Of a stretch of DNA of 64,000 nucleotides, positions 58 to 61,377 are shown piece after piece. Position 1 is the stretch's first letter. Every line of letters starts with the position of its first letter. The notes under the pieces were generated by a model. That model ran no database searches. It was given only the letters and a program-made list of their open reading frames with translations, and was not told the DNA's origin. Made by a program: the position numbers and the translations under genes. The DNA comes from an uncultured Bacteroidales bacterium (GTDB taxonomy: Bacteria; Bacteroidota; Bacteroidia; Bacteroidales; Paludibacteraceae), in NCBI GenBank assembly GCA_902800525.1, contig CADCEV010000003.1, positions 1 through 64,000 of the forward strand, given 5' to 3'.

Positions 58-90
58 ATGAGTAGTACATGAGTAGTACATGAGTAGTAC
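58..90. repeat. Three perfect copies of an 11-bp unit
   Basis: ATGAGTAGTAC occurs three times without mismatch. It lies just past the 3' end of the small gene at 115-486 and next to a 7-bp repeat of different sequence. No function is visible. Confidence 0.95.
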
Positions 91-100
91 TTGCCCCTTT

Positions 101-135
101 TCACAATTCACAATTCACAATTCACAATTCACAAT
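101..135. repeat. Five copies of TCACAAT (7-bp leader-repeat family)
   Basis: The unit is TCACAAT, or ATTGTGA on the minus strand. The repeat supplies the last residues and the stop codon of the gene at 115-486. The same 7-bp family recurs at 1411, 14689, 29147, 31097, 40285 and 47334. Confidence 0.95.
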
Positions 136-486
136 TAGGTCGCCATTGTAGAAACGCGCGATGATATATCCTCGTAGCATGGCGTACTTCTTGCCGTTGT
201 AGCAGTATTTGTCGGCTCTCCATTGGTGGTGGTACTCGGCACGCTGCCATTCATCGAGTGCTTTGAAATAGTCGGTGGCTTGTTTGAAACGTAGGCGAGC
301 ATTCTGTTCTTCTTTTGAGAGTGGTTTGGTACGCTTTTTTCTATCCATCATGTAAACGCGTGTTTCGGTTTTTGTAGTACCGTCAGCGGCTTTTCTTTTG
401 AAAGTTTTAAATACCATTTGTCGTCCATTTGCTATATTCATAGCCCCGGATATGGACTTGATACCGGGCATAAGTGTACATTTCAT
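115..486 (-). CDS. Small orphan protein, family member A (123 aa)
   Basis: I do not recognise a named family. The protein is basic and soluble, with no signal peptide or membrane segment. It shares a pattern with the proteins at 27346-27726 and 50939-51379: a Gly-containing N-terminus, a basic/aromatic stretch with Asp-Gly, a VY motif followed by Arg/Lys and Pro, a helical middle, and a C-terminal patch of the LRGYIIARF/FIRAVL type. Its final residues (VNCEL) are encoded by the flanking 7-bp repeat, so the native C-terminus may have been replaced by repeat DNA. The start follows an A/T-rich 7-bp repeat leader. It is the last gene of a minus-strand run starting at 2440. Confidence 0.7.
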   Translation of the reverse strand: MKCTLMPGIKSISGAMNIANGRQMVFKTFKRKAADGTTKTETRVYMMDRKKRTKPLSKEEQNARLRFKQATDYFKALDEWQRAEYHHQWRADKYCYNGKKYAMLRGYIIARFYNGDLIVNCEL

Positions 487-490
487 AGGA

Positions 491-518
491 ATTAAAAATT
501 AAAAATTAAAAATTAAAT
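491..518. repeat. 7-bp ATTAAAA leader repeat
   Basis: Three ATTAAAA units and one ATTAAAT unit lie directly upstream of the minus-strand start at 486. The same A/T 7-mer type is seen at 32551-32583 and 48180-48205. Confidence 0.85.
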
Positions 519-540
519 TTTTTTTGGGCCGGACGATAGC

Positions 541-660
541 ATCGCCCGGTTTATATTAACGGACGCCGATATGGGATGTCGGGATCAAATCCCGACCAAA
601 TGGACGAAGGGGGCGAGGGAACGTCGCTTTGACAAGCGACGCAGGGGACGAAGGCGAGGG
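541..660. other. Hairpin cluster in the intergenic region
   Basis: Three clear inverted repeats lie within 120 bp: CCGGaCGAT/ATCGcCCGG near 534-552, GTCGGGAT/ATCCCGAC at 578-596 with a 3-nt loop, and CGTCGCTT/AAGCGACG at 622-641 with a 4-nt loop. The gap between the genes at 115-486 and 679-1410 would be transcribed as a leader or spacer of the minus-strand operon. The middle hairpin with its 13-nt flank recurs in changed form at 26762-26793. Confidence 0.7.
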
Positions 661-678
661 GGCGAAAACAATGCACAA

Positions 679-1410
679 TCACCAATCGCGTGACCATTCG
701 AGATTGAAGCGTTGCATCGTTTCGCGTGTGCATAGTTTAAACATGCCGTTATACTTGACTTGTACGATGTCGCCGGTCTCGTCCCCACGGAGGAATTCGG
801 GCTGAGGTTCGGGAAAGTCCTGCACGAAGAAATAGGGGTTCGGCGATCCTTTCATTTCGGGATGCAGTTTGAGGGAATTGATCATTTCCATTTGAGCAAC
901 GGTCGTGCGCGCGCCAAAAGCTGCTTTGGTGGCATTGCGTCGGTTCTGGAACTCGGGAGCCACTTCGTATAAAGACCAAAAAGTCTCAAAAAGATCCTCC
1001 GGCTGCTTCGCGCCATCGTGCGCGCATTGCGCACGTGGCTGCTCTTCTTTTTTTTCTTTCATATTATAATTATTTATAGGGGGGTTATTAGGGGGGAGCG
1101 CAATTTGAGACAAACCTGTCTCATTTTGAGACAAACTCGTCTCATTTTGAGACAAACCCGTCTCATTTTGAGACAAAGCAAATAGTGCCTCTTCTCTCCT
1201 TTCGATAAGCCCTAAGTTTAACAATTTCTGCACAGCTCTTTGTGCCGTATCTTTTGACATGACGAAAGGCATAGCCGCCGCGAGTTCGCGGTAGTTGCCG
1301 TACCAACCTCGCCCGGAGCGGGTACATTTGAGGATAGCGGCAAAGATGCACGCCTCGTTGGCATTGAGGTTGTAACCGGCTATGATCTTATCGTCAAGAA
1401 AGAGTTTCAT
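679..1410 (-). CDS. Winged-helix-like protein with an in-frame 7-residue repeat (243 aa)
   Basis: Residues 1-75 look like a helix-turn-helix domain of the type seen in phage or plasmid replication proteins: a GYNLNANEACIFAAIL-type helix, then KDTAQRAVQKLLNLGLIERR as recognition helix and wing. This is followed by 3.5 copies of an SQNETGL-like heptad encoded by a perfect-length 21-bp DNA repeat, a Pro/Asn linker and a C-terminal domain I do not recognise. No signal peptide or membrane segment. Function unknown; DNA binding is inferred only from the N-terminal pattern. The start codon abuts a 7-bp repeat leader. Confidence 0.65.
   Translation of the reverse strand: MKLFLDDKIIAGYNLNANEACIFAAILKCTRSGRGWYGNYRELAAAMPFVMSKDTAQRAVQKLLNLGLIERREEALFALSQNETGLSQNETSLSQNETGLSQIALPPNNPPINNYNMKEKKEEQPRAQCAHDGAKQPEDLFETFWSLYEVAPEFQNRRNATKAAFGARTTVAQMEMINSLKLHPEMKGSPNPYFFVQDFPEPQPEFLRGDETGDIVQVKYNGMFKLCTRETMQRFNLEWSRDW
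1107..1177. repeat. 21-bp tandem repeat inside a coding region
   Basis: Units at 1107-1127, 1128-1148 and 1149-1169, plus 8 bp of a fourth. Each unit contains the inverted repeat GAGAC/GTCTC. The length (21 bp) keeps the frame, so the protein gains heptads. Confidence 0.95.
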
Positions 1411-1461
1411 TGTGCATTGTGCACTGTAAATTGTGAATTGTGAATTGTGAATTGTGAATTG
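1411..1461. repeat. 7-bp ATTGTGA-type leader repeat
   Basis: Seven or so units of the RMATTGT family fill the whole gap between the stop at 1462 and the start at 1410 on the minus strand. The first units are less regular (GTGCATT, GTGCACT). Confidence 0.9.
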
Positions 1462-1731
1462 TTATAAGCATTTCACCACTTTTTTCACCTCGTCGGGTTG
1501 CCAATTGGGGTGTGTTTTGCGGAAGGAGTCGATGAGTCCTGCCATCTCCTCGGTGACATCGGTCAGTTGGAGTTGGAAGGTGAGACCTTCATGGGTGAAC
1601 TGACCGCCGTTCGGAGCGAGAGACAGGGCTTCCTCTTCGGCTGCCGGTGAGATAACGTTAATACGTGCCTTGATGGCTTTTTCTTGCGCACGGAGTTCGT
1701 GCAATTCAATGAGATTTTTCATTTTGTTCAC
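1462..1731 (-). CDS. Small hypothetical protein (89 aa)
   Basis: Not recognised. It begins with a helical, charged segment (MNKMKNLIELHELRAQEKAI) and is acidic in the middle. Size and neighbours (an HNH gene upstream, an HTH-like gene downstream) resemble phage or integrative-element cargo, but no integrase or structural phage gene lies in the window. It sits between genes spaced by 51 bp of repeat DNA and only 4 bp from the reading frame upstream. Confidence 0.55.
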   Translation of the reverse strand: MNKMKNLIELHELRAQEKAIKARINVISPAAEEEALSLAPNGGQFTHEGLTFQLQLTDVTEEMAGLIDSFRKTHPNWQPDEVKKVVKCL

Positions 1732-1797
1732 AAATTTAACAAATTAAACAAATATTTATTTTTTGGGGTGTTTTGGGTAATTTTGGACTAACCCTTT

Positions 1798-1818
1798 CTC
1801 CCCCTTTAAGAGGGGGAG
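1798..1818. repeat. Palindromic PPPLKGGE-type mini-repeat
   Basis: The inverted repeat CTCCCCC/GGGGGAG with a 7-nt loop, read on the minus strand, encodes a PPPLKGGE-like peptide. Related palindromes lie at 47155-47174 and 48497-48516. Here it lies at and beyond the native stop of the HNH-like gene. Confidence 0.75.
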
Positions 1819-3625: not shown

Positions 3626-3626
3626 T

Positions 3627-14679: not shown

Positions 14680-14688
14680 TGAGTTAAT

Positions 14689-14716
14689 TCACAATTCACA
14701 ATTTACAATTCACAAT
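14689..14716. repeat. TCACAAT 7-bp leader repeat
   Basis: Four units (TCACAAT, TCACAAT, TTACAAT, TCACAAT) just upstream of the ATG at 14725. Here the family is in the opposite orientation to that at 31097 and 40285. Confidence 0.95.
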
Positions 14717-14724
14717 AGATAATT

Positions 14725-27234: not shown

Positions 27235-27258
27235 TATACCGCTATACCGATATACCGT
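27235..27258. repeat. 8-bp TATACCGN leader repeat
   Basis: TATACCGC, TATACCGA, TATACCGT. This is the same 8-mer family (rotated CGATATAC) as that coding for the BatE signal peptide at 42301-42332. Confidence 0.85.
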
Positions 27259-27890: not shown

Positions 27891-27938
27891 ATGAAAAAAT
27901 TGTGCGCACGATACAATCCCGATAAACCCTCGTTATAA
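27891..27938 (+). CDS. Possible 15-residue leader peptide
   Basis: ATG at 27891 reads MKKLCARYNPDKPSL then TAA, about 20 nt after the expected transcription start. Its last codons lie in an 11-bp repeat (CGATAAACCCT, CGTTATAACCT, CGATATACCCT at 27920-27952). It may be a translated leader or chance. Confidence 0.3.
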   Translation: MKKLCARYNPDKPSL

Positions 27939-28009
27939 CCTCGATATACCCTCGATAAAGTTAAGCAATCAAAACAACAAAAATATTTACCCCCCCAAAA
28001 ATTTTTAGT

Positions 28010-29936: not shown

Positions 29937-31097
29937 ATGACAACTCAAAATTCGACTTCCAAATTCGCCCTTCTCTCGGTGATGCTGTGTTTCTTCACCA
30001 TGGGCTTTGTGGACCTTGTAGGCATTGCGTCCAACTATGTGCAGCAAGACCTCGGTCTGACTCACTCGCAGGCGAACATCATGCCTTCGCTCGTTTTCTT
30101 CTGGTTCCTGATCTTCTCCGTGCCGACCGGCATGCTGATGAATAAGATCGGACGCAAGAAAACGGTGCTGCTCTCTATTGCCGTGACCGTCCTGTCGCTC
30201 CTTCTGCCGCTTTGCGGCGAGAGTTACGGAATGATCCTGGTGGCTTTCTCGCTCCTTGGTATCGGAAACGCGCTGATGCAGACTTCCCTTAATCCCCTGG
30301 TATCGAATATCGTTACCGGCAATCTTTCCTCCACGCTGACTTTCGGTCAGTTCGTCAAGGCGATCGCGTCTTTCCTTGCGCCGTATATCGCCATGTGGGG
30401 TGCAACCGCCGTGCTGCCTTCCTTCGGTTTGGGCTGGAAAGTGCTGTTCCCGATCTATGCCATCATCGGTGTTTTGGCGATCGTGGCGCTTTCACTCACC
30501 TCTATCCATGAAGAGCCGGTGGCGAAAGGATCATCCTTCGGCGAGTGCTTCAAACTGCTGGCGAACCCCTTTATCCTCCTTTGCTTCCTCGGTATCATGT
30601 GCCATGTGGGCATTGATGTAGGAACGAACACCACGGCGCCGAAGATCCTGATGGAGCGTCTGGGCATGGATCTCGCATCGGCTGGATTTGCCACTTCACT
30701 CTATTTTATCTTCCGTACCATCGGCTGTTTGAGCGGTTCGGCTATCCTGCGTCTGATCCCGGAGAAAGTGTTCTTTGCTATTTCCGTTTGTATGATCGTA
30801 GCTGCGATGGTGCTGATGGCGGTAGGTACATCCCAATGGATGCTCTATACCGGCATCGCGCTGGTAGGTTTCGGTAACAGCAATGTGTTCTCTATCTGTT
30901 TCGCGCAGGCACTCAATTACGATCCCGCGCACAGGAATGAGATCTCGGGCTTGATGATCATGGGTCTCTTCGGCGGAACGATTTTCCCGCTTTGTATGGG
31001 CTTTGCCTCCGACCTCATGGGCTCCCTCGGTGCTGTCCTTGTCATGTCCCTCGGTGCTGCATACCTCGTCGGTTTCAGCCTTAAAATGAAAAAATAA
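29937..31097 (+). CDS. MFS sugar (fructose) permease, FucP/GlcP-like (386 aa)
   Basis: Twelve predicted membrane segments. The first is ALLSVMLCFFTMGFVDLVGI, and the motif MNKIGRKKTV between helices 2 and 3 is the MFS signature. The ATG at 29937 is preferred over a TTG four codons earlier that overlaps the GH32 stop. Gene order GH32, MFS, fructokinase equals BT1759-BT1758-BT1757 of the B. thetaiotaomicron levan locus, where the carrier brings fructose across the inner membrane. Substrate is inferred from context. Confidence 0.85.
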   Translation: MTTQNSTSKFALLSVMLCFFTMGFVDLVGIASNYVQQDLGLTHSQANIMPSLVFFWFLIFSVPTGMLMNKIGRKKTVLLSIAVTVLSLLLPLCGESYGMILVAFSLLGIGNALMQTSLNPLVSNIVTGNLSSTLTFGQFVKAIASFLAPYIAMWGATAVLPSFGLGWKVLFPIYAIIGVLAIVALSLTSIHEEPVAKGSSFGECFKLLANPFILLCFLGIMCHVGIDVGTNTTAPKILMERLGMDLASAGFATSLYFIFRTIGCLSGSAILRLIPEKVFFAISVCMIVAAMVLMAVGTSQWMLYTGIALVGFGNSNVFSICFAQALNYDPAHRNEISGLMIMGLFGGTIFPLCMGFASDLMGSLGAVLVMSLGAAYLVGFSLKMKK

Positions 31098-31124
31098 TTG
31101 TGCATTGTAAATTGTAAATTGTAA
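31097..31124. repeat. ATTGTAA 7-bp leader repeat before the fructokinase
   Basis: ATTGTGC, then three ATTGTAA units, filling the gap from the MFS stop to the fructokinase ATG at 31131. Confidence 0.95.
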
Positions 31125-31130
31125 ATTGTT

Positions 31131-35605: not shown

Positions 35606-35658
35606 CACCGTGAATTGATCGAGGGGACCCCGAAAGGAGTTCCCTCACGCGTTACAAA

Positions 35659-35727
35659 ATGGTTGGAAATGGTTGGAAAGGCTAACAACTTCAAACCATT
35701 TCAAACAACATCAAACAACTTCAAACA
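35659..35727. repeat. 10-bp leader repeat directly before rimP
   Basis: Two ATGGTTGGAA units (35659-35678), an 11-bp spacer, then TTCAAACCAT, TTCAAACAAC, ATCAAACAAC, TTCAAACA, the last touching the ATG at 35728. Confidence 0.93.
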
Positions 35728-36186
35728 ATGTTAAAAGAACAATTAAAAGAATGGATTGAGGCGTATCTGAAGGATACGGATTATGAGTTGATCACGCTGA
35801 ATGTGTCTGCGGGAAATGACATTTTGGTGGAAGTGGACCGTCTGGCAGGCGTGGATGTGGATTTCTGCGCGGAGCTGAATCGCTATCTGGTGGAGAAACT
35901 GGATCAGACCCCCATTGATTATTCTTTGGAAGTGGGTTCTGTGAGCCTGACCGATCCGTTCAAGACCAGGATGCAGTTTGAGAAAAACCTCGGGCATGAT
36001 GTGGAAGCGCTGGTGGAAGGTAAGAAATTCCGCGGTCAGCTCGTTTCTGTGGATGAGGAGACGTTCTCGGTGGATTGCGAGGAGAAAGTGGCGGTGGAAG
36101 GCAAGAAACGCAAAGAAACCCAAATCGTGACACATACCTGGCGCTACGAAGAACCCAAGTACGTGAAGTACGATCTTCGGTTCTGA
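35728..36186 (+). CDS. rimP: Ribosome maturation factor RimP
   Basis: 152 aa. The N-terminal domain has DILVEVDRLAGVDVDFCAEL and the RimP core DYSLEVGSVSLTDPFK. The C-terminal SH3-like domain follows (GKKFRGQLVSVDEETFSVDC). It acts in 30S subunit maturation. First gene of the conserved rimP-nusA-infB operon. Confidence 0.95.
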   Translation: MLKEQLKEWIEAYLKDTDYELITLNVSAGNDILVEVDRLAGVDVDFCAELNRYLVEKLDQTPIDYSLEVGSVSLTDPFKTRMQFEKNLGHDVEALVEGKKFRGQLVSVDEETFSVDCEEKVAVEGKKRKETQIVTHTWRYEEPKYVKYDLRF

Positions 36187-36191
36187 GAACC

Positions 36192-36254
36192 GTAGTTTAC
36201 GTAGTTTGCGTAAATTACGAAAAATACGAAAGCAACGAAAAATACAAAAATATA
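36192..36254. repeat. Seven 9-bp units in the nusA leader
   Basis: GTAGTTTAC, GTAGTTTGC, GTAAATTAC, GAAAAATAC, GAAAGCAAC, GAAAAATAC, AAAAATATA in exact 9-bp register, ending 8 bp before the nusA ATG. The same words in the same order precede the DUF58 gene (49096-49176). Confidence 0.95.
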
Positions 36255-37576: not shown

Positions 37577-40279
37577 ATGGCAATAAAATTAATTAAAGCT
37601 TGTAAAGAGTTAAATATCGGTATGGCTACCCTCACATCCTGGTGTGAGAAACATGGTCATACCATCGAATCTGACCCGAACGTGCGCATAGACGACGACC
37701 TCTATCTGCTTTTGGCCAAAGAGTTCAACAAGGACATGGCAGTTAAGATAGAGGCTGACCGCATAGCGGCTGAGCGTCAGGCTCGAGAAGAGGCGGAGAG
37801 AGCTGCGGCGGAGGCTGCCAAACGTGCGAAAGAAGAGGCTGAAGCGGCTCGTAGAGCGGCGGATGCTGCCAAACGTGAGGCGGCTCGCAAGGCAGAAGAG
37901 GAAGCCCAGAAAGCCGCAGAGGCTGCTGAAGCGGCTAAAAAAGCACAGCAAGAGGCGGAGGCCAAGAAGAAACAGGAAGAAGCGGCGAAGGCTGCCGAAA
38001 AAGCCAAAGAGGCTGAACTGGCTAAGGCAGCCAAACCGGTAGCTCAGGCAACTCCGACTGCTCCCGCGAAACCAAAACCCGAGATCTTTACACTCGGAAA
38101 ACCGCAACTGAAGAATGCACCCAAGGTGTTAGGAAAAATTGACTTGGATGCAATCGACACCTCTACCCGTCCGGCTAAGAAAACCAAAGAACAGAAACGC
38201 AAAGAGCGTGAGGAACGTCAACGCGAGCAGCAGGCACAACATGAACAGCAACAAGCGGCTGCGGCGGAACGCCGTAAACGCGAGCGTATCAAGAACAATG
38301 CTGCGAAAGTAGATCCGAATGACAAACGGAATCAAGCCGGTAAGAAAAACAAGAAAAACCAACCGCGTGAGGCTACGCAGGAAGAGGTAGATAAGGCTTT
38401 AAAGGAGACGCTGAGCCGCCTTTCCCAAAAGCAGAACAAGAGCAACACCTCCAAGTATAAGCGTGAGCGCCGTGAGCAGGAACGCGAGAAGCACGAATTG
38501 GAGATGATGGAGGCACAGGAGCAATCCAAAGTGCTGAAACTGACCGAGTTCGTGACCGCGAACGACCTGGCGAACATGATGAATGTGCCGGTGAACAAGA
38601 TCATCGGTACCTGTATGTCCCTCGGTCTGTTCGTCTCCATCAACCAGCGTCTGGACGCTGAGACCATCAACCTCGTGGCGGAAGAGTTCGGTTTCACGAC
38701 CGAATACGTATCCGCGAAAGTGGTGGAGGAAATCAATGCTGACGAAGTGGTGAACGAGGAAGACATGGAGTCCCGTTGCCCGATCATCACCGTCATGGGT
38801 CACGTCGATCACGGTAAGACCTCTCTGCTCGACCACATCCGTAACGCGAACGTGATCGCCGGTGAGGCAGGTGGTATCACCCAGCACATCGGTGCATACA
38901 ACGTCAAACTGAAGAACGGTCAGCATATTACTTTCCTGGATACTCCGGGCCACGCGGCCTTCACCGCAATGCGTGCACGTGGTGCGAAAGTGACGGATAT
39001 AGCGATTATCATCATCGCTGCCGATGATGCGGTCATGCCGCAGACCATCGAGGCTATCAACCACGCACAGGCTGCCGGTGTACCGATGGTATTCGCTATC
39101 AACAAAGTGGACAAACCCGGTGCCAACCCCGATAAGATCCGCGAGCAGTTGTCGAACATGAATATCCTCGTGGAAGACTGGGGGGGTAAATACCAATGTC
39201 AGGAGATCTCCGCGAAGAAAGGTGACGGCGTCTATGAACTCTTGGAGAAAGTACTCCTAGAGGCAGAGATGTTGGACCTCAAAGCAAACCCCAAACGTCG
39301 TGCGAAAGGTTCGGTCATCGAGTCTTCGCTGGATAAAGGTCGCGGATATGTAGCTACGCTTCTCGTTCAGGACGGTACACTCCATATGGGCGACATCGTG
39401 CTGGCTGGTACTTTCCATGGCCGTATCAAAGCGATGTTCAACGAGCGCGGACAGAAAATCACGGAGGTACGTCCGGGTGAGCCATGTTCGATCCTCGGTC
39501 TGAATGGTGCTCCGCAGGCAGGTGATGAGTTTAACGTACTGCCGACCGAACAGGAGGCACGCGAGATAGCGAACAAACGTGAACAACTGCAACGCGAGCA
39601 ATCGATCCGTACGAAGAAACATATAGGTCTCGAGGAAATCGGTCGCCGTATGGCTATCGGAGACTTCAAAGAGCTCAATATCATCATCAAAGCCGATGTG
39701 GACGGATCTGTAGAAGCACTCAAGGATTCGTTGATCAAACAATCCACAGAGAATATCCAAGTCAATGTCATCCACGGCGCTGTCGGTGCTATTTCGGATA
39801 GCGATGTCATGCTCGCTGCGGCTTCTGATGCGGTGATCGTCGGTTTCAACGTACGTCCGACCGGATCGGCTCGCAAAATGGCGGAGCAGGAGGAAGTGGA
39901 TATCCGTATCTACTCCATCATTTACGACGCGATCAACGAACTCCGCGATGCTATGGCGGGTATGTTGGCGCCGGAGGTGAAGGAGGAAGTGACCGCTACC
40001 CTCGAAGTGCTGCAAACTTTCCATATCTCCAAAGTGGGCACCATCGCAGGATGTATTGTGCGTGAAGGCAAGATCAAACGTGGTAACAAAGTGCGTGTCA
40101 TCCGTGACGGTATTGTGATCAAGACCGCCGAATTGGCATCCCTCAAACACGTGAAGGATGATATCAAAGAGGCAGGTGTGAACACCGAATGCGGTTTGAG
40201 CCTGAAGGCGTACGATGATCTGCAAGCTGGCGATATTCTCGAATCCTTCGAGGAAATCGAAGTGGCGAAAACGCTGTAA
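37577..40279 (+). CDS. infB: Translation initiation factor IF-2
   Basis: 900 aa from the ATG at 37577. A small N-terminal domain is followed by a long Ala/Glu/Lys coiled region (residues 65-260), a second IF2_N-like domain ([20 protein letters not shown]), the GTPase with G1 [10 protein letters not shown]3 DTPGHAAF and G4 NKVDKPG, and domains II-IV ending [16 protein letters not shown]. It places initiator tRNA on the 30S subunit. Confidence 0.98.
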
Positions 40280-40284
40280 ATGAA

Positions 40285-40310
40285 ATTGTGCATTGTAAAT
40301 TGTGAATTGT
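40285..40310. repeat. ATTGTRA 7-bp leader repeat
   Basis: ATTGTGC, ATTGTAA, ATTGTGA, ATTGT, the last touching the ATG at 40311. Confidence 0.95.
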
Positions 40311-41648
40311 ATGAAGAAATTAGCTTTATTATCCCTTTCAACTGTGATGATGTGCAGTTGTTTGGTAACGCGAATCCGCACGGTAGTTCCTACGGTGGAG
40401 ACAGTGGTTCCGGCGCAGACGGTGTATTCAACCACCGTCACTTCGCCGGCGCCGAAAACAACTACAGTAACTACCGTCAAGGTAACGAACTACAGTTCCG
40501 ATCCCTGTTTCTATCTGGATCTGAACGCTGTGGCGGCTGCTTTTGCTGAGAGCCGCAGTGTCAGCGAGTTTGAGATGCTCTTGAACTCCAGTCGCTACAT
40601 GATCAATAACTTGGACCTGAACCGAGACGGATTTATTGATTACCTGCGTGTTATAGAGACCCGCAGCGGATATTACAACGCCTGCCTCATTCAGGCATGT
40701 CTCGCTCCCGGGGTGTTCCAGGATGTAGCTACATTGGTGGCGGAACATCGTCCCGATGTGTTGTTTGTGGAGGTGATCGGCGATGCTTATCTGTATGGTC
40801 GTAACTATATTGTGCGACCGGTTTTCGTAAAACGTCCGCCGATGTGGGATGTGTATGGCAGACCTAATTATGCTACCTGGTCGTCACCGTATTATTATGG
40901 TAATTATCCGTCCTATTACACGAAGCCGCAACCGGTTTATTTGAACCACTATCAGGCATATGTAACGACGTATATGACCAATAATATCTATTGCCACCAC
41001 TGCGATTATCCGACTTCGCCGTATTACAACGGATATAGCCAGATGACTCAGCCGTATGCCCGCCGTGACTACCAGAACCAATACCCGGATCAGTCGTTTG
41101 AGCGTCGTACACGTACGATCGTGGCGAATAACCCGACCGTTCAGGTAACTAATGCAGGCCAACTGCGCCGTGTGGTTTCTTCCAACGCGGAGACAAGCAC
41201 GAATACGGGTGCCTCAACTCGTCAGTCCGGCACGACTACCACGCGTCAGACCGGTTCGACCACTACGCGTCAAGCAGCCACCACGACCACTACCGGTACA
41301 ACCACACGCCAGACAAGTACTACTACCACACGCCAAACGGGTACTACTACCACGCGTCAGGCTGAGAGCAAAACAACAACTTCAACGAAGACTACGACCC
41401 GTACACCGGTAACTACGGTAGATACCAAAGTAAAGAAAAGTGGTACTACAAGCACCACTATTCGAAAAACCGATTCTACCGGCCGTACTACTACGGTTAA
41501 ACGTGAGTCAACGACGAGCACCCGTTCTTCCGGCTCTACGGGCACGCGGACAAGCAGTTCCACGACCCGCAGCACTTCGGGCACTACTAGATCCTCTCAA
41601 GGTTCGACAACCGAATCCAGCCCTCGTTCGACCCGACGCGCACGTTAG
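40311..41648 (+). CDS. Thr/Ser-rich lipoprotein with EF-hand-like motif (445 aa)
   Basis: Lipobox MMCSC near Cys15, then a Thr/Val-rich segment. Residues 65-155 form a globular domain with the EF-hand-like loop DLNRDGFIDYLRV. A Tyr/Pro-rich middle follows (SPYYYGNYPSYYTKP). From about 285 the protein is a low-complexity TTTRQTG/TTTTRQ repeat ending in a basic tail. Not recognised. The repeat tail suggests a cell-surface stalk, perhaps O-glycosylated as Thr/Ser motifs often are in Bacteroidales. Its last 62 bp overlap the convergent batE gene. Confidence 0.7.
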   Translation: MKKLALLSLSTVMMCSCLVTRIRTVVPTVETVVPAQTVYSTTVTSPAPKTTTVTTVKVTNYSSDPCFYLDLNAVAAAFAESRSVSEFEMLLNSSRYMINNLDLNRDGFIDYLRVIETRSGYYNACLIQACLAPGVFQDVATLVAEHRPDVLFVEVIGDAYLYGRNYIVRPVFVKRPPMWDVYGRPNYATWSSPYYYGNYPSYYTKPQPVYLNHYQAYVTTYMTNNIYCHHCDYPTSPYYNGYSQMTQPYARRDYQNQYPDQSFERRTRTIVANNPTVQVTNAGQLRRVVSSNAETSTNTGASTRQSGTTTTRQTGSTTTRQAATTTTTGTTTRQTSTTTTRQTGTTTTRQAESKTTTSTKTTTRTPVTTVDTKVKKSGTTSTTIRKTDSTGRTTTVKRESTTSTRSSGSTGTRTSSSTTRSTSGTTRSSQGSTTESSPRSTRRAR

Positions 41649-42354
41649 CCCATTCCCCTAAAGTCTCGTGGATCGTCACTTTGGTTCCCTCGTGAAGGGT
41701 GAAAAGGTCGGTCCCGGAGCGGTCTGGAGAAGACTTCGCATTAACGATACCCTGTGTGATGATAGCTTCATTGCGCAGGGTATCTCTGTTATGCAGCGAC
41801 AATCCGTTGAGACCGGTGATGAGTGAGAAGAGAAGGGCAATCCATGCTGTATGGAAAGCACTCTTGCGCACCCAAGGCTCGCGGCCTAAAAGGAAAAGCA
41901 GTACGCCTGCCAAACCTAAGATAAACAGCACAATAGAGATCATGAACCATTTGGGTTCACTCAGCGTATTTCGCACTGCGCGGGCCCATGTGGAGAGGAA
42001 GAAATCCTGCTCCTTGATATTATCCACAATGCGGCTTTGCGCAAAGGCAAGGTTGTATTTCGCGTCCTTGTAGTTTGGTTTCAGACGCAAGGCGCGCTCG
42101 TAATTCAAGATAGCCTGCGACAACTCGCCTTGCTTGAAACGCGCGTTGCCTAAATTGTAATACAGCGTCGCGTCCGGTTGCTCGTCGAGGAGCGACTGAT
42201 ACAATTCTGCCGCCTCCTCGTAACGTCCTTCCGCATAAGCGGTATTAGCGTCGTCAAAAGCACTCTGCGCATAAGAAACCGCGCTGCTGATGCAAAAAAT
42301 CGATATAACGATATATCGATATACCGATATACCAAAGTTATTCATTGATTTCAT
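41587..42354 (-). CDS. batE: BatE: TPR and SH3-like protein of the Bat operon (255 aa)
   Basis: A hydrophobic N-terminus (signal peptide, residues 5-29) is followed by TPRs (AFDDANTAYAEGRYEEAAEL, ATLYYNLGNARFKQGELSQA), two membrane helices (around 130-155 and 165-185) and a C-terminal SH3-like domain ending GSNEGWIRLSNLERI. The start overlaps the batD stop by 4 bp. The signal peptide residues VYRYIVISIF are encoded by four 8-bp repeat units. Last gene of the operon. Confidence 0.85.
   Translation of the reverse strand: MKSMNNFGISVYRYIVISIFCISSAVSYAQSAFDDANTAYAEGRYEEAAELYQSLLDEQPDATLYYNLGNARFKQGELSQAILNYERALRLKPNYKDAKYNLAFAQSRIVDNIKEQDFFLSTWARAVRNTLSEPKWFMISIVLFILGLAGVLLFLLGREPWVRKSAFHTAWIALLFSLITGLNGLSLHNRDTLRNEAIITQGIVNAKSSPDRSGTDLFTLHEGTKVTIHETLGEWANVRVGSNEGWIRLSNLERI
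42301..42332. repeat. Four 8-bp units encoding part of the BatE signal peptide
   Basis: CGATATAA, CGATATAT, CGATATAC, CGATATAC on the plus strand. The same family lies at 27235-27258. Confidence 0.95.
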
Positions 42355-46059: not shown

Positions 46060-46065
46060 AATATT

Positions 46066-46125
46066 AATCGTCAATTATTTTCAATCGTCAATCAATCGTA
46101 CCTCGTCAATCGTCAAATCGTCAAT
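46066..46125. repeat. CAATCGTC-type leader repeat between batA and batB
   Basis: AATCGTCA/AAATCGTC units of 7-8 bp fill the gap and overlap the batA stop. The AAATCGTC word recurs before the gene at 61378. Confidence 0.88.
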
Positions 46126-47107: not shown

Positions 47108-47131
47108 AATTATTTACCATTTATTTACTTT

Positions 47132-48145
47132 TTACGATAGAGGTGTCTCTTCCTCCCCTCCTTTCAGGGAGGGGTCGGGGGTAGGCTTGGTCCCCTTCAC
47201 AAACTCATATGCCGTGTTCAGCGCCTGTTCGTTCTCGTCCGGCGTCGTGTGCCATTTGGCGAACTTAACCAAATCCGCTAATCGCAGCATCTTGCTCAGT
47301 TTCTCATACAGCTCTTTGCCTTCTTCCACCGGTAATTGTGAATTGTGCATTGTGAATTGTGAATTGGCTTTGCCCTCTTCCACCGGTAATTGTGAATTGT
47401 GCATTGTGAATTGTGAATTGACGAGAATTGGTTTCAATTCTCGTAGCGTCTCATCACTCGTCTTCTCTGTACTCTGCACGTCAAAACGCCTTCCTATATA
47501 CTCGCGCACAACATCCGTCAGCTCGGTCTGATACTCTTTGACCTTGCCGTCCTTCCATATCTTCTGCGCCTTGATCTCATCTAATTTCTCTAACGCCACT
47601 TCGTCCGCAGGCCGCAATAACTCCGGCTCGATCACCTCTTCCTCCGGCTTGCGGTTCTTTTCGTACCAACGCCATAAGTAATAGACTCCGACGCCTAAAC
47701 CGCCCAGACCCAAAGCCAACAAGATCCAACGGATAATTCCCCACCACCAGATAGGAGCTTTCTCGATATCTTTGATATCGGTGATGGCTAATGTGGTATC
47801 TACTTCGAACGGCTGAATGACATTGAGTGCCATCGACTCGGTCCAGAACGTGTCTTCGCCGCTGGCTATGGCTATAGGTGCGATAGAAAACAAACTGTCC
47901 TTGAAGGACGTCAGAACCAACTCTTGTTGGAGCTGTACACGTCCGTCGGGCAGGGTAGTAGTGTCTATTTTCCCCTGTTCCACGATCTCAATGCCGTCTT
48001 GCAGCATCTCCCCGAACACAGGCATCTCCACGCGTTCGTTCTGATCGTGCGTCACCTGCAGATGCATGGCCGTCTGGTCGCCTAACATCAGCATCGTCGA
48101 GTCGATACTCGCGCTAACTACTATCGCTAATAATAAATTAAACAT
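47132..48145 (-). CDS. Bat-operon membrane protein with repeat-derived insertions (337 aa)
   Basis: Start taken at MFNLLLAIVVSASI (48145), which serves as signal peptide. The periplasmic beta domain (residues 20-125) is followed by a membrane helix (WWWGIIRWILLALGLGGLGV) and a cytoplasmic helical domain. It sits at the place of the DUF4381-like protein usual between the DUF58 and batA genes. In the cytoplasmic part an 18-residue block with NSQFTMHNSQLPVEEGKA occurs twice in tandem, from 54-bp units containing the 7-bp leader repeat. The C-terminus (PDPSLKGGEEETPLS) comes from a palindromic mini-repeat. Both are foreign additions to an otherwise conserved protein. Confidence 0.8.
   Translation of the reverse strand: MFNLLLAIVVSASIDSTMLMLGDQTAMHLQVTHDQNERVEMPVFGEMLQDGIEIVEQGKIDTTTLPDGRVQLQQELVLTSFKDSLFSIAPIAIASGEDTFWTESMALNVIQPFEVDTTLAITDIKDIEKAPIWWWGIIRWILLALGLGGLGVGVYYLWRWYEKNRKPEEEVIEPELLRPADEVALEKLDEIKAQKIWKDGKVKEYQTELTDVVREYIGRRFDVQSTEKTSDETLRELKPILVNSQFTMHNSQLPVEEGKANSQFTMHNSQLPVEEGKELYEKLSKMLRLADLVKFAKWHTTPDENEQALNTAYEFVKGTKPTPDPSLKGGEEETPLS
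47155..47174. repeat. Palindromic PDPSLKGGE mini-repeat at the end of a Bat-operon gene
   Basis: CCCCTCC/GGAGGGG with a 6-nt loop followed by TCGGGG. It encodes PDPSLKGGE on the minus strand. Confidence 0.8.
47314..47421. repeat. Two 54-bp tandem units containing the 7-bp ATTGTGA repeat
   Basis: 47314-47367 and 47368-47421 differ at two positions by eye. Each holds five or so RMATTGT units plus unique flank. 54 bp keeps the frame (18 residues). Confidence 0.95.
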
Positions 48146-48179
48146 TGTGCATTTTTCGCGCATCATTGCGCGAACAATA

Positions 48180-48205
48180 ATTTTTAATTTTTAATTTTTA
48201 ATTTC
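48180..48205. repeat. A/T 7-bp leader repeat
   Basis: AATTTTT units end the DUF58 gene and lead into the next one on the minus strand. Confidence 0.8.
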
Positions 48206-49088: not shown

Positions 49089-49095
49089 AAATGAC

Positions 49096-49178
49096 GTTAT
49101 TTTCGTTATTTTCGTTATCTACGTAATTTTCGCAAACTACGTAAACTACGCAAACTACGCAAACTACGTAAACTACGT
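49096..49178. repeat. Nine 9-bp units in the DUF58-gene leader
   Basis: On the minus strand three GTAGTTTGC and two GTAGTTTAC units, then GAAAATTAC, GTAGATAAC and two GAAAATAAC in exact 9-bp register between the moxR stop and the DUF58 ATG. Confidence 0.96.
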
Positions 49179-50168
49179 TTACGGTACCTGTACGGCGTTC
49201 AAAACCTCGGTAATCACATCCTCCGTGGTCACATTGTTTGCCTCTGCCTCGTAAGTCAGGCCGATTCGGTGTCTCAGCACGTCATAGCATACCGCACGTA
49301 CATCTTCCGGCGTCACGTACCCTCTCCTATGAATAAACGCGTACGCACGCGCCGCACGCGCAAGGCTGATACTTGCACGAGGACTACCGCCGAAAGCAAT
49401 CATCTGTTTCATGTCTTTCAAACCGTACTCTTCCGGCTGACGGGTCGCAAACACAATATCCACAATGTATTTCTCGATCTTCTCGTCCAGATAAACCTCC
49501 TCCACGATCTTACGCGCCTTGATTATATCTGCGGTGCTCAAAATCGGCAGTACGGTCTTCTTCTCGCTGGCGATGTTCTGACGGATGATCGCTTGCTCCT
49601 CCTCTTTCTTCGGATAGCCGATCACCACTTTCAGCATGAAACGGTCGGTCTGCGCTTCCGGCAGAGGATACGTTCCTTCCTGCTCAATTGGGTTTTGCGT
49701 AGCAAGTACCAGGAACGGATCGTCCAATTTGAATGTCTGGTCACCGATGGTCACTTGCCGCTCCTGCATCGCCTCCAACAACGCACTCTGCACTTTCGCC
49801 GGAGCACGGTTGATCTCATCTGCTAACACAAAATTAGCAAAGATCGGGCCTTTCTTGATTCGGAAAGCCTCATCTTTGATGCTGTAGATCTGTGTACCGA
49901 GTACATCTGCCGGCAACAGATCCGGTGTAAACTGAATACGGCTAAAATCCGCCTTGATTAAGTCGCTTAAGGTCTTGATAGCGAGGGTTTTTGCCAAACC
50001 CGGCACGCCTTCCAACAATATGTGCCCGTCGCTCAAAAGACCTATAAGCAAACTCTCTACTAAATGCTTCTGACCTACAATGACCTGATTCATTCCCAAG
50101 GTCAGAGCATCTACAAATGAACTCTCGCGCTCCACGCGTTCTTGTAATTCTCTAATATCTACTTGCAT
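49179..50168 (-). CDS. MoxR-family AAA+ ATPase (329 aa)
   Basis: Walker A-like GVPGLAKT, Walker B VLADEINRAPAKVQSALLEA and sensor 1 LATQNPIEQEGTYPLPEAQT are all present. First gene of the operon moxR, DUF58, DUF4381-like, batA-E. It acts as a chaperone-like ATPase with the VWA proteins. I see no clear TAnnTTTG promoter upstream; the leader is pyrimidine-rich on the plus strand. Confidence 0.96.
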   Translation of the reverse strand: MQVDIRELQERVERESSFVDALTLGMNQVIVGQKHLVESLLIGLLSDGHILLEGVPGLAKTLAIKTLSDLIKADFSRIQFTPDLLPADVLGTQIYSIKDEAFRIKKGPIFANFVLADEINRAPAKVQSALLEAMQERQVTIGDQTFKLDDPFLVLATQNPIEQEGTYPLPEAQTDRFMLKVVIGYPKKEEEQAIIRQNIASEKKTVLPILSTADIIKARKIVEEVYLDEKIEKYIVDIVFATRQPEEYGLKDMKQMIAFGGSPRASISLARAARAYAFIHRRGYVTPEDVRAVCYDVLRHRIGLTYEAEANNVTTEDVITEVLNAVQVP

Positions 50169-50219
50169 AATTATGGTATATTTAATAATAATTCTCGTTT
50201 TCTTTTTCTTTTCTTTCTT

Positions 50220-50300
50220 TTCTTCCCTTTTATCCTCCCCGCTTCGCGTTTTCTTCCCTTTTATCCTCCCCGCTATGCGTTTTCTTCCCTTTTATCTCCT
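50220..50300. repeat. 31-bp tandem repeat in the moxR upstream region
   Basis: Units begin at 50220, 50251 and 50282 (third incomplete). Pyrimidine-rich on the plus strand, so the moxR transcript, if it starts upstream, would have a purine-rich leader. Confidence 0.9.
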
Positions 50301-50387: not shown

Positions 50388-50590
50388 CCGCCAATATTGG
50401 CGGATGAGAAATGCCGCTCCGTATCCCCCTCTCTTGTGGGGGCTGTCCTCGTTGTTCTGTGCGCGCCACCTCCGTTGGCGCGTCTTTCCTTTCCTCCTCT
50501 TTCCTCCTCTTTCCTCCTCTCCTCTTCCTGCTTCCTCTCTCCCTCCCTTGTGGGGTGAAGAGCTCTGCTCGATCGAGCGTCCTGTGGACG
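50388..50590. other. Cluster of unrelated hairpins in the 770-bp gap
   Basis: CCGCCAATATTGGCGG (50388-50403), CCCCC/GGGGG (50425-50441), CGCGCCA/TGGCGCG (50462-50482), GCTCGATCGAGC (50567-50578) and CGTCC/GGACG (50578-50590), separated by CT-rich DNA (TTTCCTCC repeated near 50490-50520). The largest frame here (191 codons) is low-complexity and rejected. It may hold the moxR promoter and a structured RNA. Confidence 0.6.
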
Positions 50591-50640
50591 GTCGTAGAAC
50601 AAATTCGGGGTGGGGTTATTCATCTTTTTTTTCCAATTTA

Positions 50641-50672
50641 TTTGCATATGTCAAATATTTTTTGTACCTTTG
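50641..50672 (+). promoter_or_regulatory. Promoter of small orphan family member C
   Basis: TTTG (50641-50644), extended as TTTGCATATGTC, 20 nt, TACCTTTG (50665-50672). The start codon is 267 bp downstream, a very long leader. Confidence 0.83.
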
Positions 50673-50746
50673 CATCGTCAAAAACATCAACATCTCCAGT
50701 ATTATATACATAGTATATAATACCAACGTGTTGAACCCGAAAAATT

Positions 50747-50801
50747 AGTGCGTGATAAGTGCGTCGTAAGTGCGTCGTAAGTGCGCGGTAAGTGCGAGGT
50801 T
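50747..50801. repeat. Five 11-bp units in the leader of member C
   Basis: AGTGCGTGATA, AGTGCGTCGTA (twice), AGTGCGCGGTA, AGTGCGAGGTT in exact register. Followed at 50836-50898 by C-rich repeats of about 22-26 bp (TAGCCCCCTTACCGCCCCTT). Confidence 0.95.
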
Positions 50802-60600: not shown

Positions 60601-61264
60601 CGACCACACGATCTTCATCACCGTGCTCGCGCAGGACGGTACGACAGAAATGACCTATACGATCCGTCAGATAGTGGGTAAGGACAGTAATAATAAACTG
60701 GCGTGGATCACCCTCAACGGAGATTCACTGGCGGGCTTCGATCCCGATATGGACTTCTATACCTATTATCTGTTCGAAGGAACACCGGTCCCGGAAGTAA
60801 AAGCCCAAACGGCTTCCGAGAATGCCGAATTGGATATCAAAGCGGTTTCTGCCGGAGACACTTGTGTCATCACTTGTATCGCCGAGGATCAGTCCATGCG
60901 ACGCTACTACATCCATTTCGCCATCTCTGCCATCAACGATGGTCTTGAACCCTCTGCCAATGATGTGCTCTTGAAGCGAATCCCCGGTACGAATAAGATC
61001 ATGGTCGGTACGCTCCGTAAGGGTGTCAGCTTTGCCCTCTATGACCAGGCCGGCAGAATGGTGAACTTCCAAGGTGTGCCCGTAGTCGATCCTAACGACG
61101 CGGAAGTATATACCGATGCCGATAATAAGGATGTCCTCAATAACTTCAATAACCCCGATGCGGCACTCGTTATTGACATCAATCCCGGACAACCCTATTT
61201 CTACACATTCTTCGATGTGAAGTCACAAAAATTGAGAACTGGCAAAATAATTTTGCTGCAATAA
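51617..61264 (+). CDS. Giant secreted protein of cadherin-like beta-sandwich repeats (3215 aa)
   Basis: Signal peptide ends near LNAQ (residue 25). Residues 26-270 form a PCMD-like (putative carbohydrate metabolism) beta domain starting VPDPGFEDW and ending SLYVDDVELIYS. A second, related domain lies at about 1570-1795. The remainder is roughly thirty copies of a repeat of about 80 residues with the pattern LxxIxxxGxxLxGFxPxxxxYxxxLPxGTxxxPxV, then a TYTIxF strand, as in cadherin-like beta-sandwich domains. The C-terminal 110 residues (FALYDQAGRMV, later NPGQPYFYTFFD and TGKIILLQ) resemble a type IX secretion C-terminal domain with an insertion of about 40 residues. Likely an extended adhesin or stalk. 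Alone between its promoter and terminator. Confidence 0.85.
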   Translation: MKKIFKSVMVLLMSLMTSWTVVLNAQQVPDPGFEDWSGAAFDGNAQLKYWNASNVTQVGFKFNFAHKEAGRNGGSCMMVQQQDVGAMGITETTPGYFTLGKPWVYLASVAKINEATAGTDDGIAFAYRPDSMSVWIKRTGANADKEDFVMLYYAWSGSSTGNTYKGKNGNCSSVDTHTNEESDIRQAVNANDCGTIKKANQIAEGIWREKKSYGNWTNIRVPIYYLNNTTPEKMNIIFSASQYPNFRISTGMYTGNSLYVDDVELIYSANIQKLLINGVEWKGFDPNSTEVQNYALGETATAIPSIEAKRGAGTITNIKGNINFPGRTLSGKEIVITPGDLDKKPTTIKVTSDDGKKTMTYKIQFQKAASSNAKLAGISYTIDNKTTPLPDFSPSKYNYTVDLPYGTTTAPTLSVEGQEDGQTFAITQPTSVTGTAKIVVTAPNKQATATYNLTFRVAPLADNTLKDIKVNGNSVTGFNPSQAVYKVSLPTSTKTLTVEPVSAYPAGMQKIVITPSPLPSGDDINGSTVQISVTTEGNAVAKVYKLNIKLEASSYSYLKDLSVEGLTMEFVPDQFTYYFNLPLGTTALPKINYTAGDEYQKIEVASLDPGVVDGTVRITVTAGNGDQSVYKLVFSTEKSSNSVLQGITIGGVALEDFAADVTNYSYTLPEGTTELPEIVAVPGDEFQTITVTTAGVNGKTRITVTAGNGSTTIYQISFSVKTFNDNTLKSLAVAGFDIEFDPETNDYYINLPKGTTTLPEVTYELQSTEFQTVRETKPAGLNGEYKITVRPQSGASRTYIIHFSLNKSNNTALKAIYIDNTPLAAFHQDTLHYVDSLPEGVSLIPSVTFEKAEASQRVLSVLDGTTQIITVTAETGDTREYRIDFIVRISANAFLEMIYLDGDSLKGFEPEELKYEVELTGDRCPAITVDKAAGQQVTITAPYAAGVAQIKVQPGVGAANIYLINFKKQETTVTVQLSDITFNGKSIEGFTPSKTSYELTYQGARPVIAGVAGEEGQTVSEALWQGAVAWIFVTDKEGNQASYSVACTRLPMTENKLQAIYADGTILPDFEENKTDYAYELEPGSVFPQVTYAAKENAQVAFFGQTAEGEWTIRVAAENGTTTTYTVRYTIKKRSDATLADLKVTGHEIGFLPEKTDYALDLDEGALLPSISVTAREGQRILSFTDDADHQRVLVTAENGAQNTYTITYSRKQSANALLANILIDGKKLPGFEPDSFNYAITLPKSTKVMPNIFPVAQLSNQTVTTFYSAPDGTTKIHVVAQDGTTEANYTIDFNVALSTNTKLGSLTINGEEKDVDETDYNFVLPYGASKPYSVAFTKAEPEQLVDFVEAPVNSVTKITVKAQNGDSRTYSIRYTIAQPEGENKVAKIKYTYILYGDTKKDTIKGELVPVKGDNTIDLPYGSKNFTITDVEKSYPEQSIVFYNGGIRRGAKVIASPNREGEPDVTYNVIPNILPDTLNKLKALYYIKAGETIPVPHFSPDVYSYIIPVKEQPTQSTLVAVTYGGKEPTYSKPTTPANVRNKKMAVTVGSGTKMREYSVFWYYEDDEAPLTYNWIQTEKAHFYNSDLFGIISDKGEKEATGYKPAGWSVPADLFAGIDYNAANISHFVYYTGKEVNRIGSKEVMLSTLRGGALNSSVPGVMTLGSLSLPDGVKVGGNTKVSFSRSVDAGVTFRNTPQAFQFEYMPIMKYGIDAWKAWIAVGGTSGSPVEYEITGNYSGLGEWHTATQALNYNFTMSKMNILLCSSNFSGNSLDIYDGSEAKSCDLQIRNVRFVYNSELTKATIDGIEVTPSGRNFVKNVDANYVGVPALTFTGKVNDQTRTIEWLNGGEWKEGKLTAKVINYGENLVDSTHYYVILQRTGVTSLDYTVDFGSYPTTEKNADTTIVTLPYGMKATPDVKITPSSIHQRFDVQKNGKAITITVQAENDASSTHTYLFVENLPSDASVEMIEALDDKNDDITLTFVPGSDENRSVYTATSSVVPTLVYTKKNDLVGQTFATIYTADSVVLTVTAADGKTTHKYVVNRLDPAVSSDAQLTDFRIGSTEISLGGTKTSLVMERPDEVVYFNRKHEADSVVFLQDETKMQWTAFASDDISKTKTYTLTYPTEVSIKANLAALKVNGEDYSEFDENMTEYTIKADSAIWLATLLAESEQTQATTTEIQGDSTIYTTVVTAADGNHKQTYKVIVHRTKSDVSTLAGIYYDGKLIENFRPDSLDYTYIIPAGAYKEKMPQIAAVTYEAGQIGQTVELNPASVLGEPTEFIVTSETGAQTTYTLTVNAEPSHCTELTGITVNGKAIDQFESGRHFYSVSLQSVEANIELLSNDNFQTIVRDTLVIKDSLQYRYGFEVTAEDHIAREKYEVEVYVENKSNDAQLANILIDGKSFVNYERAINHDLIFDPGNNLYTINLPAGTTTLPEVSAQLKMEGQTVNIDQDENNVLLKVTAVDEKTVNTYTLRFVIPQSKNTNLSMIYLNGDSLEGFEPDLYFYQVELPVGTHELPEVVAQKAEAVQTILPYTTDPEKMQTVITVQAEDPATRVSTYTVVFRYTRSDADTLKMIYADGDSLLGFEPTRFYYTYSLPVGTPAFPVLDQDLADEWQTVTMDTVELTQSTLIRQLNVTAESGKKNTYTVAYTILKSDVDTLQMLLVDQKPLPNFKAEVAEYYYTLTAAQAAELDGALPAVEAIAGDEYQTVLIAQDRDSLSGKSLGYKSLVTVTAATGTSRTYIVHYPVELSQEATLNMIMVGGQPVANFDAERFNYKMEINVDASVPVVSVVKKEEAQTYEIRVIEDTVLVEVMAEDLVTSQTYTLVFERLLSANTLLRNIVLRDAEGAVLPASQFAFRPEEFSYPEIPLAYVADSLPETLLPSIEVVFSDSMQTADTTRHLLPNGDMQVDVVVTAPNGEDQAIYTLIFHFVKPSDAKLSAIMVKEELIADFKPELTEYTFTHPYGTPDSLFFTLDDITYELSDERATDTAYIDADHTIFITVLAQDGTTEMTYTIRQIVGKDSNNKLAWITLNGDSLAGFDPDMDFYTYYLFEGTPVPEVKAQTASENAELDIKAVSAGDTCVITCIAEDQSMRRYYIHFAISAINDGLEPSANDVLLKRIPGTNKIMVGTLRKGVSFALYDQAGRMVNFQGVPVVDPNDAEVYTDADNKDVLNNFNNPDAALVIDINPGQPYFYTFFDVKSQKLRTGKIILLQ

Positions 61265-61280
61265 CTAAAAAATGCAAGAA

Positions 61281-61316
61281 AATCCCACATATATTTGCGT
61301 ATGTGGGATTTTTTTT
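61281..61316 (+). terminator. Terminator that overlaps the next promoter
   Basis: AATCCCACATA/TATGTGGGATT with an 8-nt loop, followed by a T-run to 61316. The right arm and loop contain the -33 box of the downstream promoter. Confidence 0.9.
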
Positions 61317-61325
61317 GTATCTTTG
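61294..61325 (+). promoter_or_regulatory. Promoter of the GT4 gene, nested in a terminator
   Basis: TTTG (61294-61297), extended as TTTGCGTATGTG, 20 nt, TATCTTTG (61318-61325). Confidence 0.85.
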
Positions 61326-61339
61326 CACCCCAAAACAAT

Positions 61340-61377
61340 AAATCATCAAATCGTCAAATAGTCAAATAGTAAATCAT
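61340..61377. repeat. AAATCGTC-type 8-bp leader repeat
   Basis: AAATCATC, AAATCGTC, AAATAGTC, AAATAGT, AAATCAT, touching the ATG at 61378. Same family as 46066-46125. Confidence 0.92.

Follow-up and report, generated by a model that had tools for sequence, protein, structure and literature searches.

Tandem-repeat arrays resembling quickly replaced spacer DNA between the genes of an uncultured Paludibacteraceae bacterium

Many of the gaps between genes in a 64,000-nucleotide (nt) stretch of DNA from an uncultured Bacteroidales bacterium (Paludibacteraceae; assembly GCA_902800525.1, contig CADCEV010000003.1, positions 1 to 64,000; the whole stretch is hereafter the window) hold short tandem repeats, mostly with units of 7 to 11 bp. 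SusD-like, fructosidase-like and fructokinase-like genes are among the genes of the window, and its closest named database records are metagenome-assembled genomes of Bacteroidales/Paludibacteraceae, many of them ruminant-derived. A preliminary description had read the arrays as leaders placed directly before start codons. Tandem Repeats Finder (score ≥30) reported an array at all 14 positions named there, nine of which overlap a start or come within about 21 nt of one, that at 35659 solely through the neighbouring array 35684-35741. The other five are located elsewhere: 101 overlaps a stop, 42301 is in a stop-stop gap, and 27235, 27920 and 50747 are at least 88 nt away from a start. Our analyses suggest that the arrays look like quickly replaced spacer DNA, not like a fixed control signal before genes.

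The analysis was extended to the source genome (G000; 2.39 Mb, 92.7% complete), of which the window and a further 800 kb, 864 kb in all (36%), were searched at a score of ≥40. Gene starts and ends came from an in-house codon-score caller trained on the larger sample, neither from Prodigal nor from the annotation. It called 615 genes with 514 gaps between them, and array statistics were restricted to the 383 gaps of ≥30 bp. The arrays far exceed chance expectation, with 225 of them in 155 of the 383 gaps compared with 7, 9, 10, 10 and 11 in five dinucleotide-preserving shuffles, which bears out the earlier impression that they are more than random low complexity. Exact tandem doublets in gaps were enriched at periods 7 (144 doublets, 10 times the density in coding DNA), 8 (56, 22 times), 9 (23), 11 (18) and 14 (24), the gap density over these periods being about 10-77 times that of coding DNA; at period 6, the gaps of the 864-kb sample showed no such excess over coding DNA. 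Unit length, which had been described as constant within one leader, is only roughly so, and several arrays combine 7- and 8-mers (e.g., those of period 15). Most of the 277 unit classes are singletons (239), and 38 recur, the commonest being AAAAATT (16), AATTCAC, which is the same class as AATTGTG (15), and AATTATC (13). The claim that families recur at unlinked genes therefore holds for some of them. For instance, AATTGTGAATTGTG occurs 110 times in the source genome and its reversed control not at all; within the genus, 20 of the 101 genomes contain it, the source genome included (reversed-pattern controls, 0-5), and five genomes are rich in it (110, 60, 27, 15 and 9 copies). Around one operon, array-bearing gaps numbered 46/111, 24/89, 34/119 and 8/40 from the nearest to the farthest relatives. 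In 150 kb of Escherichia coli, arrays were found in 1 of 74 gaps.

The position of the arrays did not reveal the expected enrichment at start codons. In same-direction gaps, 67 of 188 arrays end within 11 nt of a start or overlap it, where random placement expects 64.1. Arrays are nearer the upstream stop: 89 of the 188 lie within 11 nt of it or overlap it, and 60 of these overlap. Convergent gaps, which lack any start, hold arrays in 13 of 38 cases. Furthermore, arrays were present in 103 of 205 same-direction gaps without a promoter-like match compared with 26 of 99 with one. The promoter-like pattern (TTTGC...TANNTTTGC, e.g., window 50640-50675), which we take to be the Bacteroidetes -33/-7 promoter type, provides the commonest non-array 12-mers of the gaps in the sample. 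Arrays probably precede start codons because most of such free space is located there. The core of the previously suggested expansion mechanism that spreads leader cassettes stood up (dispersal, unit changes and swaps between sister genomes), but "leader" is too narrow a term, as the arrays fill gaps generally and promoter-free ones above all. The suggestion of a spacer replacing Shine-Dalgarno sequences found no support. Shine-Dalgarno-like tetramers show no enrichment upstream of genes with arrays (2/61; shuffled 5.1) or of genes without them (12/215; shuffled 19.8), and there is therefore nothing for the arrays to replace. Predicted folding over 30 nt averaged -0.66 kcal/mol for array leaders and -1.7 kcal/mol for others, a difference of means only.

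Turnover at scale was assessed on one sister pair, namely the source genome and G021, for which 90 orthologous gaps could be anchored (median flank identity 96.3%). Gaps were classified by collinear 7-mer blocks and strict flank anchoring, a step that kept 90 of 92 pairs; one pair longer than 800 nt is not in the set, gaps of ≤150 bp were regarded as short, and those of <16 bp were counted as their own class. Whole gaps have been replaced between the two genomes. Among 57 short same-direction gaps, 14 were replaced, 2 were present in one genome and absent from the other, and 7 were mosaic (23/57 together). A further 14 changed length with shared content (37/57 when these are counted), 16 were conserved, and 4 were <16 bp. 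The 24 of these gaps that carry arrays comprised 9 replaced, 1 present/absent, 2 mosaic, 9 with length change, 3 conserved and none of <16 bp. At window 40280, 30 of 30 nt are identical on each side, and the gap between differs after its first five bases. Across the operon at window 46000-50300, the sister genome aligns at 90%. Conservation extended to all 4 short convergent and both short divergent gaps, while the 8 long divergent gaps included 4 conserved, 1 with length change and 3 mosaic. Changes affected 29 of 67 same-direction gaps without a promoter-like match and 0 of 6 with one (Fisher p = 0.07), small numbers which suggest that promoters are spared by the turnover. Some arrays also change length by whole units. 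Array-type length changes were 7, 7, 7, 14 and 28 nt (all at 7-bp arrays except one change of 7 nt), and a 54-bp unit within a coding sequence (47132-48166) is present in 2 copies in the source genome, 3 in the sister, and in 0 of 17 other readable alignment rows.

With the identical pipeline, E. coli K-12 and SE15 (flank identity 98.25%, 82 gap pairs) yielded 45 short same-direction gaps, of which 26 were conserved, 17 were <16 bp, 2 changed length and 0 were replaced. The two length changes look to us like repetitive extragenic palindromic (REP) arrays. Within the group, a further 14 genome pairs gave 31 gaps, comprising 9 replaced, 3 present/absent, 1 mosaic, 1 with length change, 5 conserved and 12 of <16 bp. 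The gap before window gene 48198-49088, viewed in 47 of 80 loci (46 parsed), contains many different arrays and modules, is reduced to one nucleotide in two loci, and is absent in one.

Most of the replacing sequence is of families that are also scattered over other gaps. Shared 13-mers common to other gaps cover 53% of changed source alleles (shuffled 13%), 36% of changed sister alleles (shuffled 11%) and 26% of conserved source alleles (shuffled 9%). A non-allelic copy (≥30 bp, ≥90%) was found for 87 of 195 short gaps, and 863 of the 1133 matches lie in gaps; 578 of the matches run in the same direction and 555 in the opposite one. At 45 bp and 85%, 43 of the 195 short gaps had such a copy, with 150 matches in the same and 63 in the opposite direction. 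In equal 150-kb samples, 15 of 41 short gaps had a non-allelic copy compared with 2 of 27 in E. coli. Long phrases are common to different gaps, including one of 67 bp (97%) in two gaps separated by 1.5 kb and one of 61 bp (95%) on different contigs. The hairpin core CTTAGCCCTAAAGGGCACGATTATTT (26 bp, ≤3 mismatches) has 12 copies in the source genome (control 0), occurs in 10 of 11 genomes, and is embedded at some sites in AATTCAC arrays, at others in different sequence. Moreover, the 78-bp module of window 50540-50617 is located in the sister genome in the gap matching 46060-46120 instead (98.7% identity), and at its original site the sister retains the flanking palindromes and the unchanged promoter-like stretch with the module missing.

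Table 1 Arrays and related features in the window (positions are those of the window; G021 is the sister genome)
Feature	Position	Strand	Context
11-bp array ATGAGTAGTAC x3	58..90	.	contig start nearby
7-bp array TTCACAA	100..136	.	overlaps stop of minus-strand gene 115-417; no start adjoining
7-bp array, AATTGTG family	1409..1462	.	fills gap before minus-strand gene 679-1410
8/16-bp array GATTTGAA	12912..12947	.	upstream of SusD-like gene 12952-14679
7-bp array AATTCAC	14686..14724	.	fills gap 14680-14724
8-bp array TATACCGA	27235..27257	.	at least 88 nt from every called start
11-bp array	27909..27957	.	called start 28046 lies 88 nt on
7-bp array AATTGTA	31096..31129	.	stop-to-start gap; G021 version 7 nt shorter
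Two adjacent 10-bp arrays	35657..35741	.	second overlaps start at 35728
9-bp arrays CGTAGTTTA / AAAATACGA	36191..36252	.	other sequence in G021 instead
7-bp array AATTGTG/A	40275..40311	.	stop-to-start gap; replaced in G021
8/16-bp array CGATATAC	42299..42333	.	convergent (stop-stop) gap
7/8-bp array, AAATCGTC family	46081..46125	.	gap 46060-46120; different 150-nt sequence in G021
54-bp unit containing AATTGTG heptamers	47314..47420	-	in frame within coding sequence 47132-48166
7-bp array TAATTTT	48178..48204	.	gap identical in G021
9-bp array CGTAGTTT	49095..49178	.	fills gap between ATPase gene 49179-50168 and gene 48198-49088
Dispersed non-tandem module	50540..50617	.	in G021 sits in gap matching 46060-46120
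Promoter-like sequence TTTGC ... TACCTTTGC	50640..50675	+	same in G021 despite changing modules alongside
11-bp array AGTGCGTCGTA	50747..50796	.	142 nt ahead of next called start
8-bp array AAATCGTC	61340..61375	.	ends 2 nt before start at 61378

Two of the tabulated sites pair uncertainly with the sister genome. The array upstream of the SusD-like gene corresponds to 31 nt of other sequence under loose anchoring and to 1755 nt under strict anchoring, and the counterpart of gap 14680-14724 is 2 nt, a weak match with flanks 73-76% identical. The AATTGTG-heptamer array at 47314-47420 is translated into the protein of its gene as NSQFTMHNSQL repeats; a further AATTCAC array (29144-29174) is located within coding sequence 28603-29928. 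Inspection by eye showed the 9-mer beside the ATPase gene, which is presumably MoxR-like, at two (L077 and L094) of the 46 parsed sister loci.

We consider it probable (roughly 60%) that the arrays are a fast-turnover fill of promoter-free operon gaps, refilled by copied cassettes and resized by units. In this Bacteroidales genus, such gaps would be repeatedly overwritten by short cassettes, either tandem arrays with units of 7-11 bp or small modules with a hairpin, and these would originate by copying from other gaps. After copying, arrays would gain or lose units, mostly of 7 bp. Selection would purge changes striking genes or promoters, and would retain fill that gives the upstream gene a stop and the next start an A/T-rich, weakly folded approach; the fill itself is probably close to neutral. 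The copying would proceed either by replicative template switching or by a mobile-element process. Template switching in replication or repair is our leading guess, because mosaics, short pieces and both orientations would all be expected from it. Any 7-bp unit with a stop would shut all three frames within 21 bp, making such fill tolerable at gene ends, and a stop codon was present solely in the sense unit of 65 arrays and solely in the antisense unit of 31 (p = 0.0007).

Several observations weigh against this reading. Counted by gap (related units can score one gap more than once), the sense:antisense ratios are 4:8 for AATTGTG, 4:4 for GTGCATT and 9:4 for TAATTTT, whereas other families are strongly sense, namely TAATTGA (11:1), TAAATCG (12:0), AGTTGAG (6:0) and GTTAAATT (5:0). 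Neutral copying in either direction would not produce the bias of TAATTGA, TAAATCG and AGTTGAG. The stop-codon argument explains it in part, as the excess of sense stops reaches significance among arrays that overlap the upstream stop (24:7) and in no other class, and a strand-specific constraint may act on sense families of the TAATTGA and TAAATCG type. In the sister comparison, 2 of the 7 mosaics are point changes alone and 1 of the 2 present/absent pairs has 73-76% flanks, which lowers the firm count to 20/57, and the 16 conserved short gaps include 3 with arrays. Downstream flanks of replaced gaps are 89-92% identical throughout compared with about 96% beside conserved gaps, and these regions are therefore perhaps more diverged in general. 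One of the 7-nt length changes falls in an 8-bp array, and the others (4, 9, 10, 17, 30, 33, 48 and 50 nt) do not divide by 7. Divergent gaps, all but one with a promoter-pattern match, carry arrays as often as other gaps do (25/45), and changes were seen in 3 of the 10 divergent orthologous gaps. The E. coli control pair is closer in identity and smaller, and in its other gap classes 3 long convergent gaps were replaced, with 1 convergent and 2 other mosaics. Finally, no copying enzyme was found in the source genome, where transposases other than Y1 were not searched for.

Alternatively, the arrays could be translation-tuning leaders bound by a ribosomal or a regulatory RNA-binding protein, as the accessible part of a report on TAACTGA repeats proposes for Beggiatoaceae (PMC4679880). 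Many arrays touch starts, the three sense-biased families above are almost always sense-oriented, and the leaders with arrays combine A/T richness with weak folding, all of which fit this idea. We nevertheless consider it unlikely, given that start proximity is no greater than under random placement, that stop-stop gaps hold arrays too, that the AATTGTG family has no fixed orientation, and that families are swapped between orthologous genes at about 96% flank identity. The last two points also argue against binding sites for an RNA-binding protein, another early suggestion, as a general reading.

The recurrence of hairpin modules, together with the palindromes that accompany a DUF559 nuclease in relatives, would fit placement of the cassettes by a classical mobile element, either REP with a REP-associated tyrosine transposase (RAYT) or a miniature inverted-repeat transposable element with a transposase. 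This appears quite improbable to us. A Y1 (RAYT) transposase gave no match above the cut-off in the source genome (92.7% complete), in G034 or in the sister genome, other transposases not having been searched for; no reverse transcriptase was found in the source genome or G034, and no DUF559 nuclease in the source genome. In addition, the tandem arrays are without evident fixed ends. The sole sub-threshold Y1 match of the source genome is a 333-aa protein (L164, G000:C16:84999-85220), which was rejected as the copying enzyme in view of the lack of a counterpart match in G034, a genome with 60 AATTGTG doublets.

The DUF559 elements of the relatives were observed in their own right. In three intergenic cases (L224 in G021, L225 in G018 and L227 in G007), the nuclease gene lies between inverted GC-rich palindromes, and the right end of the element supplies an ATG 18-21 residues upstream and in frame, replacing the start of the next gene. 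We take the genes given new starts to be MurD-like, MurG-like and acyltransferase-like. The sister allele of C5:58550 in the source genome carries such an element, where the matching murD gap of the source genome is TT only. A search across the family also placed DUF559 domains, in frame, within class I tRNA synthetases, a PrmC-like methyltransferase, FGAR amidotransferase, UvrA and a DegT aminotransferase (L226, L233, L242, L247, L255, L256, L257 and L260), with 8 of 8 scanned frames open. Parsing succeeded for 30 of the 34 loci examined, and 26 of these 30 have domain-adjacent inverted repeats scoring above 20 shuffles. The element resembles a homing-type one that lacks splicing; 14 papers of the open-access literature searched mention DUF559, none of them in its title or abstract. 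The sister allele of C4:31947-32003 contains a palindrome-only insertion whose translated leader ends in ...PSERGTGGVF compared with ...PSERGLGGVF of the L227 element, as if it were a nuclease-free derivative of a DUF559 element.

Purely local slippage would have the arrays born in place around the upstream stop, their likeness reflecting alike A/T-rich stop regions. The 60 stop-overlapping arrays, their enrichment in sense stops and the unit-wise length changes are in line with this, but long phrases recur at other gaps, arrays share the hairpin core, and a non-tandem 78-bp module stands at a new place, which leaves slippage alone with little probability. Homologous recombination with diverged strains, importing gaps plus flanks, has a similarly small chance: the first 15 nt of flank are 85% and 89% identical at replaced gaps compared with 98-99% at conserved ones, downstream identity stays at about 90%, and adjoining codons also differ at window 36187 and C5:58550, but the upstream flank recovers from 85% to 93-96% beyond those 15 nt, the gap at window 40280 differs between fully identical 30-nt flanks, and the origin of the different fills is left unexplained.

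Operon spacers are usually regarded as short and slow to change. The finding that 37 of 57 short spacers differ in content, presence or length at 96% flank identity contrasts with this view, and much of the replacing sequence is drawn from a shared cassette pool. Caution is also warranted in that repeats ahead of start codons are not necessarily regulatory. A bolder version of the spacer-fill reading, possible but in our judgement doubtful, is a genome-wide, transposase-free spacer exchange, in which an active copying process would place 30-150-bp cassettes (heptamer phrases and hairpin modules) at stop-to-start junctions and would have rewritten at least about a third of the short operon spacers without promoters by a flank divergence of ~4%. 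If true, the regulatory context of operon genes would evolve via cassette swapping, not point mutation.

No account of such arrays in Bacteroidales was found in open-access literature searches, and we compared them with three known systems as described in the accessible portions of the respective papers. Like REP sequences and bacterial interspersed mosaic elements (BIME) with RAYT (PMC3733652, PMC2817692), the present system includes small dispersed extragenic palindromes near genes, those of REP being described as palindromes of 20-40 bp that carry a GTAG or CGTC tag; unlike the REP systems, most array cassettes are short tandem units with no palindrome, and no RAYT scored above the cut-off in the source genome. 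Long simple sequence repeats have 5-11-nt units, with heptamers commonest, and slippage has been proposed for them (Mrazek 2007, per PMC4679880). Period 7 likewise dominates here and whole-unit differences exist between relatives, but other arrays change by non-multiples, and wholesale replacement and gap-to-gap copying exceed slippage.

The closest likeness is to the TAACTGA direct repeats, which, according to the portion of the report available, are intergenic in Beggiatoaceae, Cyanobacteria and a few Bacteroidetes including Paludibacter, concentrate a few nt at most from the start codon and are mostly in forward orientation towards it; related heptamers are rarely repeated, and related strains have shorter, repeat-free gaps (MacGregor 2015, PMC4679880). 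Both systems have heptamer arrays that are mainly intergenic, with many abutting starts and some overlapping the end of the upstream open reading frame. As far as that portion allows the comparison, ours differs in that many unit families and lengths coexist, AATTGTG is unoriented, specificity for starts is lacking and orthologous gaps swap families. The forward orientation fits TAATTGA, and not AATTGTG or GTGCATT. Membership of the arrays as a whole in the TAACTGA system was therefore rejected on unit, single-family nature and concentration at starts. Single TAACTGA doublets occur in few relatives and in 1 of 262 loci. TAAYTGATAAYTGA has 76 matches in the source genome and matches in 13 of 14 genomes searched, and the TAAYTGA doublets among the source-genome matches listed read TAATTGA. 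This TAATTGA family, one base away from TAACTGA and sense-oriented, may well be kin of the TAACTGA repeats.

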